Assembly: GCA_016788465.1 (NCBI GenBank)
Contig: JAEURV010000244.1
Location: 1-33,364 of the forward strand
Source of the DNA: Nitrospira sp.
GTDB taxonomy: Bacteria > Nitrospirota > Nitrospiria > Nitrospirales > Nitrospiraceae
Length of the DNA: 33,364 nt
Reading direction: 5' to 3'
Positions 9,261 through 24,478 of this stretch are shown piece after piece. Position 1 is the first letter of the stretch; each line of letters starts with the position of its first letter. A program made the position numbers and the translations under genes. Under the pieces are notes generated by a model. That model did no database searches, was not told the DNA's origin, and saw only the letters and a program-made list of their open reading frames with translations.

Positions 9261-9470
9261 CTCCGCTACCTGCACATAGTCATGCTATTTTCCCCAGGAA
9301 GAGGGGTGACCCATAACTCGATTCTCACTAGGCCGTTGACCCGCCCATGCCTCACTCTCAGTTTCGACCCACTGCGATAGCCAAGCTGATGGTAGCTGCT
9401 CTATAGGAATTCTTTCATAGTGACTCAGTTTATGGACCAGGCTTTATGTAGAGAGATAGGGTCTAGCCCT

Positions 9471-9513
9471 AAAAATAAAGAGGGCGGGATTCCGAAGAAG
9501 GAATACCGCCCTC
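9471..9513 (-). terminator. Rho-independent terminator of the exported-protein pair
   Basis: Bases 9480-9493 and 9500-9513 form a 14-base stem with one mismatch around the loop gaagaa. Read on the minus strand, the hairpin is followed by a T-rich run (complement of aaaaataaa at 9471-9479). It lies just after the stop at 9535. The rest of the 274-base spacer back to mutS (9261-9470) shows no gene. Confidence 0.85.
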
Positions 9514-9534
9514 AGCTATGCTGATAACGAACTG

Positions 9535-10197
9535 TCAGTGTGCTTGGTTATAGGACGCCGTGGAGTGAACGAATCCTCCGATAGGCTTTCCACCGGGAAT
9601 CATCACATCATACTGCATGCCAACGTTGCTTCCATCTGGCGTCACAGGCGAACTGTTAAGCACCCCCATTGCTTTGGCACAGCCGGAATCAAATTCGTTT
9701 TTCCCCGTGCACTCCTTGAGGCGAAGTGCTGAAATACTGAGCGGCTTGCCAATGGCACCGGATACCTCGGGAATCCTCTTCACTGCAGAAATTACACGAT
9801 GGTTCTGCTCCGTTTCAGTGGCGACAAACTCAATGAGATCTGTGGTGCTACCGGGTGGAACTTCCTTGGCAGCAGCCGGCCCCGCATGGGGTCTCCCCAT
9901 TTTCTGCAGTTCTTGCCAAGCAGATTTCTCGGCATAGAACTTCAAAGTCTTACCCGGATGAACCTTCTGCCAGTACAAACCACTCTCGGCATTCCCGCCG
10001 AATACGGCCACGTTGATCCACACAGCTTCATCATAGGGATCAAGGACAATTACTCGTCCCTGTATCGTGGTGGGCTTGCTCATATCTCCCCATTCAAATC
10101 GCTCTTGAAACGATTCAATAGCCGAGGCACTCGACGCCATCCCCGCTACCAGGGCAACGGCTGCCAGAAGGGCTCCACCTTGCTTCTGAAACATCAT
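9535..10197 (-). CDS. Exported protein of unknown function (second gene of pair)
   Basis: I do not recognise this protein. The strong AAGGAGG at 10206-10212 lies eight bases before the ATG at 10197, so I place the start there and not at the GTG at 10215; this gives 220 residues. The N-terminus MMFQKQGGALLAAVALVAGM, followed by ASSASA, is a clear Sec signal peptide. The mature part has few cysteines (two, in KECTGK and DSGCAKAM), which could form one disulfide. It contains TTIQGRVIVLDPYDEAVWINVAVFGG, then a charged region with YWQKVHPGKTLKFYAEKS. It is the downstream gene of a two-gene unit, 41 bases after its partner, and both share a TxQGRV segment early in the mature protein. Likely periplasmic or outer-membrane associated. 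Confidence 0.8.
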   Translation of the reverse strand: MMFQKQGGALLAAVALVAGMASSASAIESFQERFEWGDMSKPTTIQGRVIVLDPYDEAVWINVAVFGGNAESGLYWQKVHPGKTLKFYAEKSAWQELQKMGRPHAGPAAAKEVPPGSTTDLIEFVATETEQNHRVISAVKRIPEVSGAIGKPLSISALRLKECTGKNEFDSGCAKAMGVLNSSPVTPDGSNVGMQYDVMIPGGKPIGGFVHSTASYNQAH

Positions 10198-10238
10198 GAT
10201 CACGTCCTCCTTCACAACAACTTGGGTACTAAGGGTGG

Positions 10239-10754
10239 CTAGTCTTTTAGTATTTTAAAGCCGGTGATGGTTCGGCCGTCGAGGGTGACCTCCATGGCGA
10301 CCAATTCCTGCGAGGCCTTGATGATTTTGTCCATCAGAGCCTTGTCCTTCACGGCAAGGCGAACTGTCGTGGCCGCATGATACCAACCGGAATATGCAGA
10401 GTTCTTTTCCGCCCCTCCGACAAAACCCCATGCACAACAGGTGAAGAGAGGATCCGGCGGTTTCACATCAAGCATCGTTGATGATCGGCCACCAGCATCT
10501 CCAGATCCTTGCTCTCCCGAATTCCAGTACTGAATTCCGAACAACAGTTCTCCATCGGGGTTATCCGCCCATTGAGACCAAACACGACCTTGCAGAGTCT
10601 TGACCGGTGGGGCAGCCTTTAGGGGCTTTCCCCCGACAACGTCATCAGCAAGACCAAGGTGCTCAATGGCTCCAGCAGCGAAGGAAAATTCGGCCGCTAG
10701 CAAGCCGAAACTGGCGCAGACTATGGCGGCAGCTAGAATGACAGCCCTTTTCAT
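10239..10754 (-). CDS. Exported protein of unknown function (first gene of pair)
   Basis: A 171-residue protein that I cannot assign to a named family. Residues 1-27 (MKRAVILAAAIVCASFGLLAAEFSFAA) form a signal peptide with a two-residue basic head. The mature protein contains VKTLQGRVWSQW near 52, a paired cysteine FTCCAWGF near 104-111, and ends in VTLDGRTITGFKILK, a strand-rich pattern reminiscent of OB-fold or other small beta-barrel proteins. That fold idea is inference. The start is supported by AAGGAGGG upstream of the ATG. It is transcribed with the following gene, whose mature part also carries a QGRV segment, and an own promoter candidate lies at 10825-10852. Confidence 0.8.
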   Translation of the reverse strand: MKRAVILAAAIVCASFGLLAAEFSFAAGAIEHLGLADDVVGGKPLKAAPPVKTLQGRVWSQWADNPDGELLFGIQYWNSGEQGSGDAGGRSSTMLDVKPPDPLFTCCAWGFVGGAEKNSAYSGWYHAATTVRLAVKDKALMDKIIKASQELVAMEVTLDGRTITGFKILKD

Positions 10755-10824
10755 ACCTCGTCCCTCCTTACATCAATTTGGTTTACCGTTTGTCTTCGTA
10801 AGCGGTTGATCAGTTTTGGTGATC

Positions 10825-10852
10825 ATTATCGGCAAAGAAAAATCATTTTGAA
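10825..10852 (-). promoter_or_regulatory. Candidate promoter of the exported-protein pair
   Basis: On the minus strand TTCAAA (10847-10852) and GATAAT (10825-10830) are 16 bases apart. The -10 box matches five of six and the -35 box four of six consensus positions. The start would be about 65 bases ahead of the ATG at 10754. The rest of the 296-base spacer to the M16 gene (10755-11050) holds no gene, and I see no terminator for the M16 gene in it. Confidence 0.4.
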
Positions 10853-11050
10853 CAAGCTTTTCACATCAGGGGTTGTCCCGTGCTCATGTCAAAAAGCTCA
10901 AACCTGAATAATTGAAGTGGAACGGTACTGAAACTCAGCTGTCCTGTCAAGGAAATGTTTCCTCATGCCTACCTCGCTCTCGAAAATACTACGAAGAGCA
11001 ATTGGAAAACAATAGCTTAGGGGGATACAGGCGCTGACACTTTCTCCTGA

Positions 11051-24001: not shown

Positions 24002-24478
24002 CTATTTCAGCATGAGTAACTTGCCGCCGACATGTCCCGGATGCAGATGACACCGATACTCCAGTACGTTCCCTGCGGCATAAAACAAGTCACTGGTTGG
24101 AATACCGATATACTGCGTTTCGCCTGGTTTGAGCACGATCTTTGTATGTAAGACAGTCGGTGCCGATTGATTCACAGCCGCAGTGAGTTGGAATCCATGT
24201 TCAGCCGCTGCCTTGTTCGTCACCTTTAAGAGAACAGGGGCGCCCGGACGCGTCTTAAAATCGATGACGGTCACGGGAGGATACCAGACCTTCGTGTCTC
24301 CGATTTCGAGCGCAAAGAACGAGGCATCGACAGTGAGCTCTTTAAACGGCTGTCCGACGACGGAGCCGGTTTCCAGATCACCGGTTTCGACACCACCCGC
24401 CTGAAGCGCATATGAACCTGAAACCCCGGCCAACACCATCCCAAGGCCGAGAAAGACCACCAACAATGACTTGCCCAT
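24002..24478 (-). CDS. Exported cupredoxin
   Basis: A 158-residue protein with an N-terminal signal peptide (MGKSLLVVFLGLGMVLAGVS, then GSYA before a likely cleavage). The mature part ends in a cupredoxin domain. Candidate copper ligands are H94 in the AEHGFQL loop and C143 with H146 and H149 in YRCHLHPGH. The usual axial methionine is not seen at its standard place and H149 takes a similar position. The stretch resembles the Cys-x-Leu-His-Pro element of nitrosocyanin, though the nitrosocyanin glutamate is replaced by H94. It likely works in the periplasm as an electron carrier or copper-binding protein. It is monocistronic, with a GGGGGG-type ribosome binding site and its own terminator. Confidence 0.82.
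   Translation of the reverse strand: MGKSLLVVFLGLGMVLAGVSGSYALQAGGVETGDLETGSVVGQPFKELTVDASFFALEIGDTKVWYPPVTVIDFKTRPGAPVLLKVTNKAAAEHGFQLTAAVNQSAPTVLHTKIVLKPGETQYIGIPTSDLFYAAGNVLEYRCHLHPGHVGGKLLMLK

Follow-up and report, generated by a model that had tools for sequence, protein, structure and literature searches.

A conserved pair of exported proteins with predicted OB barrels in Nitrospiraceae and two related families

The closest described counterparts of the two proteins considered here, as judged by their predicted shape, are SilF and CusF, metallochaperones that handle Ag(I)/Cu(I) in the periplasm and consist of a small exported OB barrel. These carry a distinctive ligand pattern and belong to an RND efflux operon; in CusF, we take the metal ligands to be His36, Met47 and Met49, with Trp44 as the capping residue. 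With respect to distribution, the same kind of pattern is shown by 140 diagnostic genes of nitrite-oxidizing Nitrospirales (PMC12342949, Table S12), which according to the portions of that source used here are present in NS-4 and most other carriers of nitrite oxidoreductase (NXR), and not in NXR-negative relatives. The same portions report NXR in Nitrospiraceae, UBA8639 and NS-4, UBA2166 being alone in the order without it (PMC12342949, ISME J 2025). In what follows, family f1 is Nitrospiraceae and contains N. moscoviensis, f2 is probably NS-4 and f3 probably UBA8639, and f4 would correspond to UBA2166, all three by comparison with these parts of PMC12342949. Finally, NXR-T, the tubule-inducing NXR subunit of Kuenenia, provides a precedent for a small NXR accessory protein (PMC8387239, in the excerpts used). 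Nitrospira-type bacteria carry out nitrite oxidation in many habitats and, according to excerpts of the same literature, possess many lifestyle-specific proteins without a known role (PMC6606698, PMC12342949).

Here, we analyzed two adjacent genes, A and B, in a 33,364-nucleotide stretch of DNA from a Nitrospira sp. with a genome of 3.7 Mb (hereafter, the window). A sequence-only reading had described them as an exported pair of no nameable family, lying in one unit with its own promoter and a strong terminator. The features of the locus are collected in Table 1. By inspection, the N-termini of both proteins look the part of Sec signal peptides, as had been proposed, and in gene B the signal peptide is directly followed by a strongly conserved mature N-terminus, IESFQERFEWGD (alignment A2). 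A mechanical list of open reading frames gives gene B as 9535-10215 on the minus strand, 226 aa from GTG. We consider the ATG at 10197 as the most likely start, since the GTG lies immediately 5' of the Shine-Dalgarno sequence, this is found 8 nt before the ATG, and Met is present at this position in 23 of 24 aligned sequences; the ATG lies 41 nt beyond the stop codon of gene A. In two f3 sequences of gene B (L067 and L068), a lipobox-like VVGC is present inside the signal peptide and is found in no other sequence of alignment A2, so that membrane anchoring of the gene B product may differ between lineages.

Table 1. Features of the gene pair and its surroundings, with positions as in the window.
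Feature	Position	Strand	Description
Promoter	10922..10951	-	CTTGACA-N17-TACCGT; -35 TTGACA, -10 TACCGT
Shine-Dalgarno of gene A	10762..10769	-	AAGGAGGG, invariant in 25 aligned sequences
Gene A	10239..10754	-	exported, 171 aa; strands 2 and 3 of the predicted OB core separated by a W/G-rich insert of ~50 residues
Gene A predicted Sec signal peptide	10674..10754	-	residues 1-27, by inspection of sequence
Gene A predicted OB core	10251..10598	-	residues 53-168; AlphaFold, blocks of ten over these elements pLDDT 55-84
Gene A insert	10368..10523	-	residues 78-129, alignment A1; model pLDDT <50 at 78-128
Shine-Dalgarno of gene B	10206..10212	-	AAGGAGG, from sequence
Gene B	9535..10197	-	220 aa from ATG; 226 aa if GTG 10215 used
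Gene B predicted Sec signal peptide	10120..10197	-	alignment A2; cleavage site by inspection
Gene B predicted OB core	9775..10071	-	residues 49-147 of P0001; AlphaFold
Intrinsic terminator	9480..9513	-	21 nt after gene B stop codon

The idea that the pair has its own promoter held, at a position other than the one first put forward. The site originally proposed, around 10825-10852, is a scanner match of a kind that occurs 3 times versus 2.7 in shuffles, and it is not the site that is conserved. A footprint of 25 aligned sequences, including the window, reveals instead a conserved upstream block, CTTGAC-N-TTTnAGTACC[A/G]T, at 10922-10951, with TTTnAG ahead of the -10 element in most Nitrospira loci. 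The exact pattern TTGAC-N10-13-TTTnAGTACC is present upstream of gene A in 128 of 157 loci (a redundant set in which some genomes are repeated), and the remaining 29, among them all 15 f2 and f3 loci, match TTGACA-N17-TA[C/G][C/G]RT. We rejected a regulon joining the pair to nxr: the strict motif occurs only at this locus (a single site ahead of gene A in 6 genomes out of the 10), its reversed pattern has no site, and the loose motif is no commoner than its reversed control (1-3 versus 0-3 sites in 8 genomes). The promoter appears to be dedicated to the pair, with no regulon signature. The strong terminator proposed downstream of gene B was borne out: the region 9466-9530 has a folding energy of -25.3 kcal/mol (z -3.47, with 0 of 200 shuffles as stable), and its stem is followed by a U-rich stretch; a simple terminator scanner did not list this stem, which is supported by folding energy against shuffles.

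Purifying selection is strong on both genes: dN/dS is 0.027-0.068 in 6 comparisons of A and 0.020-0.071 in the 5 comparisons out of 6 that were usable for B, some of the dS values being near or above saturation. Ratios of 0.02-0.07 indicate that these are real genes. They are also ancient and consistently paired. When peptide patterns of A were run against a collection of 84,980 species genomes, they hit 209 stretches, of which 172 were confirmed; among the best 80 of these 172 loci, A and B lie side by side in 79, and the exception stops at a contig end. The titles of these best 80 are Nitrospira, Nitrospiraceae, Nitrospirae or Nitrospirota, except for one Nitrosospira, which is probably a mis-titled comammox bin. 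The neighbours in the window are housekeeping genes with no nxr among them, namely an M16 peptidase (by Pfam) and mutS and pnp (both named by reading). In 18 of 21 loci, window included, mutS lies beyond gene B, and in 16 of the 21 the M16 peptidase is found upstream of gene A; it is absent from this position in four f2 loci, indicating that the pair is kept together where the upstream neighbour differs.

The earlier statement that the two proteins belong to no nameable family stands: neither Pfam nor NCBIfam gave any convincing match for A and B, also when 24 members of each were searched against Pfam. CO_deh_flav_C was matched by 6 of the 24 members of A, at E 5.9e-4 in the best case; we discarded it, as in P0002 the matched part (residues 7-61) consists largely of the signal peptide and linker, and scores 13.5 bits versus a cut-off of 25.5. 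A sequence profile search of the PDB returned 0 matches for gene B at E up to 10; for A it returned two variants of Tet4 and three chains of the angiopoietin-1 receptor (TEK), none better than E 0.039, which we also rejected.

AlphaFold models were built from 24-sequence alignments and have a mean pLDDT of 54 (pTM 0.48) for A and 56.8 (pTM 0.47) for B, each with a better core. The core elements of A are strands 53-60, 69-77 and 130-135, a helix at 138-148, and strands 154-159 and 162-168; those of B are strands 49-59, 64-69 and 90-95, a helix at 97-106, and strands 127-136 and 139-147. In both models, this arrangement (strands 1-2-3, helix, strands 4-5) follows the OB order. Between strands 2 and 3, A carries a Trp/Gly-rich insert with CCAWGF and GWY motifs, and the product of gene B has a C-terminal tail beyond its predicted core. 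As to whether the two folds might be unrelated, a point raised with the sequence-only reading, these low-confidence models give OB-type barrels for both mature domains and, independently, the same top solved match, SilF (Z 9.6, rmsd 2.3, 75 aligned residues for A; Z 9.3, rmsd 2.4, 74 aligned for B). Such Z scores are only modestly above background, given that Z 7-8 is often attained by models that have no clear relatives, and other OB barrels come next in rank at Z ~7-8; further OB matches (SSB, IF-1, RecO and toxin B subunits) were set aside as generic OB barrels. Foldseek assigns the SilF match a probability of 0.99 for A (E 0.038) and 1.00 for B (E 3.8e-4), and the match of the A model to CusF a probability of 0.15 (E 1.5).

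That SilF ranks first for both models raises the alternative that one or both proteins chaperone metal in the periplasm as CusF/SilF do. Candidate ligands are mostly kept, with Met141 and Met154 of A present in 23 of 24 sequences, Cys106-Cys107 of A in 20 of 24, and His139 and Met200 of B in 18 and 19 of 24, respectively, and the conserved Met and Cys residues of A make this alternative slightly likelier. However, none of the His, Cys or Met residues (the start Met aside) is invariant in the 24 sequences of either protein, the Cys pair of A being Gly-Gly in the four f2 sequences, and the pattern H...W-P-x-M-T-M, which spans strands 2-3 in CusF/SilF, is absent from all 24 A and 24 B sequences. 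Moreover, Pfam searches up to E 10 gave no match to the CusF family, and neither did those with the 24+24 members up to E 1; hhalign of the A and B profiles against four CusF-like sequences (CusF/SilF) gave at most 0.2% probability; and no RND metal-efflux or cus/sil-type operon is present among the locus neighbours. CusF itself is a poor match for A, and OB barrels are common. We therefore regard a CusF/SilF-like metal chaperone as improbable. On the models, A and B may be SilF-shaped, yet they would fall outside CusF/SilF in ligand pattern, sequence profile and operon, with no detectable sequence homology, and differ from them also by the 50-residue insert of A and the C-terminal extension of B. 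Given the conserved Met and Cys residues of A, metal binding of another kind may take place.

The shared TxQGRV segment that had drawn attention to the pair is indeed present in both proteins (TIQGRV in B, TLQGRV in A), and coincides with strand 1 of both predicted barrels. However, across the 24+24 sequences only its Arg is invariant, together with Leu and Gly in A, while the Gln is conserved in the sequences of neither gene and the Gly is not invariant in B. Given these few invariant residues and a BLASTP E of 0.56 for that stretch (the best E values of A versus B being 0.40 and 0.56), the hexamer alone is not beyond chance. The suggestion that A and B are diverged paralogues found little favour in profile comparison, hhalign giving 7.4% probability, and 0.9% with 107 A sequences versus 135 B plus C sequences (family C is described below). 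A tandem duplication, with divergence after A gained its insert, would account for the adjacency, the common predicted strand order and the common top match, and the weak hhalign alignments do place strand 3-helix-strand 4-strand 5 of A in register with those of B; with such low probabilities, and with 0.5% and 0.2% for A versus family C, we look on it as conceivable and lean against it, and it would be compatible with the role that we propose below. In the 78 usable loci out of 100, distances of A and B remain correlated once M16 and mutS are accounted for (partial r 0.60), but within f1 (69 loci) A is tied as closely to the M16 peptidase (0.48) as to B (0.45).

Gene B has homologues of its own in family C, which includes exported proteins of ~125-165 aa (alignment A3; hhalign 98.8%, E 1.1e-16, and also 98.3%), with no convincing Pfam match in the 5 members tested. 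The B profile recovered such proteins in five genomes, five of them among 311 ORFs (E 4e-8 to 4e-7). No homology is detectable between family C and gene A by hhalign. Families B and C have in common a strand pair, T.IxGRV...D.YD.AxW, whereas family C proteins are shorter, lack a B-type tail, and have no A gene alongside in five loci (L200-L204). Strong matches to family C (E<1e-20) are present in 27 of 395 Nitrospirota genomes (3/3 of f2, 17/27 of f3 and 7/110 of f1), with none in the genus of the window and none outside f1-f3. In two f2 loci, a family C gene of 133 aa lies directly behind nuoN (L226:1492-1893, minus strand; L227:1480-1881, plus strand), nuoN being identified by TIGR01770 with E 4e-133 and 3e-137. 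A family C protein so placed may be an accessory of complex I, and the homology with B together with this adjacency gives a weak hint of a link between the pair and the respiratory chain.

Across 395 evenly sampled Nitrospirota genomes, gene B is present in 139 and gene A in 136 of the 140 belonging to f1-f3 (f1 110, f2 3 and f3 27, as counted from listed matches plus same-order misses), and neither gene was found in any of the 255 others. Within sampled Nitrospirota, the pair is thus confined to three families, one of which is Nitrospiraceae, and this distribution agrees with the adjacency described above in confirming that the two genes occur together. Among a set of 98 relatives, A and B are each found in 91. 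Where both are missing (G026), the M16 orthologue is missing too; where A is missing (G032, G379 and G087), the M16 gene is at a contig end and B, or a fragment of it, lies on another contig. The contig of G035 ends inside gene A, and in G094 and G414 the two genes are on different contigs, with no more than 113 bases between the beginning of the contig and the start of A. In f4, the pair is absent from all 4 genomes of the relatives set; three f4 stretches contain pnp and the M16 gene, but neither the pair nor mutS comes after them as far as each stretch extends; in the single case followed beyond this, the adjacent gene resembles uvrA.

A few draft genomes depart from the standard arrangement. 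In G002 (C98:7142-7643) and G020 (C20:1185-1858), gene B is broken into two frames, by assembly error or a recent break, while the adjoining gene A shows no stop. In addition to the pair on C422, G047 has a second A-like fragment (C79:3304-3621, 106 residues, 75% identity), which is possibly an extra copy or contamination.

Families f1-f3 are very probably NXR carriers. As a marker for NXR, PF14711 was abandoned, since its matches in 8 of 98 relatives (7 over cut-off) were taken as NarH-type; we used TIGR03478 (positions 120-260, E<1e-48), every match lying below the model's own cut-off. On this basis, an NxrB-type match is present in 55 of the 98 relatives (N. moscoviensis alone has five such matches), and these 55 genomes include gene A in all cases and gene B in 54 (the exception is G035). 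No f4 genome has such a match (0/4). Within f1-f3, the marker was not found in 39 of 94 relatives, the genome of the window included, yet A or B is present in 37 of them; NXR copies assemble badly according to the excerpts used (PMC12342949), and this may account for such genomes.

The match between the pair and NXR is an association only: it represents one evolutionary contrast, three related families against a sister and distant groups, with no repeated gain or loss, and therefore cannot separate function from shared descent. This contrast is equally what would be expected if the pair had an envelope function unrelated to nitrite oxidation and followed NXR by clade inheritance alone, after a single origin in the ancestor that f1-f3 share, or after a loss in f4. 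Such an envelope function also agrees with the housekeeping neighbours, with a promoter not common to nxr, and with ordinary codon bias: in N. moscoviensis, codon adaptation ranks A 104 and B 68 of 291 ORFs, against ranks 5, 6, 7, 10 and 16 of 290 for the nxrA/nxrB-like ORFs, in a mechanical set drawn from 300 kb plus the pair locus that includes wrong-frame ORFs. However, near-universal retention under high constraint, also in small f1 genomes of 1.7-2.0 Mb (G046, G242, G246 and G362), fits a core cell function, though one that need not be nitrite oxidation. A clade-specific envelope function is the main rival to the reading that we favour, and a real possibility, on balance doubtful.

Codon bias likewise gives no support to an expression of the pair as high as that of NXR. 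In N. moscoviensis, an exported gene without assigned function, NITMOv2_2496, was reported to reach a transcript level as high as nxr (PMC6606698, in the excerpts used). Judged by position, the pair is apparently not this gene: it lies at 4.216 Mb, and ~58 kb further on, at 4.274 Mb, there is an NxrB-type match that would fit tags near NITMOv2_4533. NITMOv2_2496 is a promising target of its own, apparently distinct from the pair.

That the two proteins make up a secreted two-component complex, as the sequence-only reading had suggested, is plausible. Our best guess, offered tentatively, is that A and B form a periplasmic OB-fold adaptor or chaperone complex that serves nitrite oxidation. The two genes would be co-transcribed as an operon from their own sigma-70-type promoter, and their products exported to the periplasm, where they would bind each other, probably through the conserved N-terminus of B and the conserved insert of A. 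The complex would then act as a non-catalytic adaptor, or as a folding or assembly factor, for a periplasmic part of the nitrite-oxidation chain, with periplasmic NXR as its most obvious client. A stronger version, in which A and B constitute a dedicated assembly or docking complex of Nitrospira-type NXR, obligatory and previously unrecognised in nitrite oxidation, seems to us unlikely; such a complex could keep soluble NXR docked to its electron acceptor, or protect NXR while it matures after export. The precedent of NXR-T is one of role and not of structure: NXR-T is a four-helix bundle that carries c-type haem, whereas beta barrels are predicted for A and B, their models showing beta strands and no helical bundle, and no CXXCH haem motif is present in their sequences.

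We found no earlier paper naming the pair in the open-licence literature, supplements aside. Conserved and exported, with its promoter defined and its fold predicted, it represents a concrete target among the lifestyle-specific proteins of these bacteria. If it works with NXR, it would partly explain how this soluble periplasmic enzyme is assembled or tethered to the respiratory chain.

Two further genes of the window, both on the minus strand, deserve mention. A 406-codon ORF near the contig end (32138-33358) has no Pfam match at E 0.001, and is possibly cut by the contig end. The other (24002-24478), for which no match was obtained in Pfam at E 0.001 or in NCBIfam at E 0.01, codes for an exported protein of 158 aa that by eye is cupredoxin-like, with an ending C-H-L-H-P-G-H then M.
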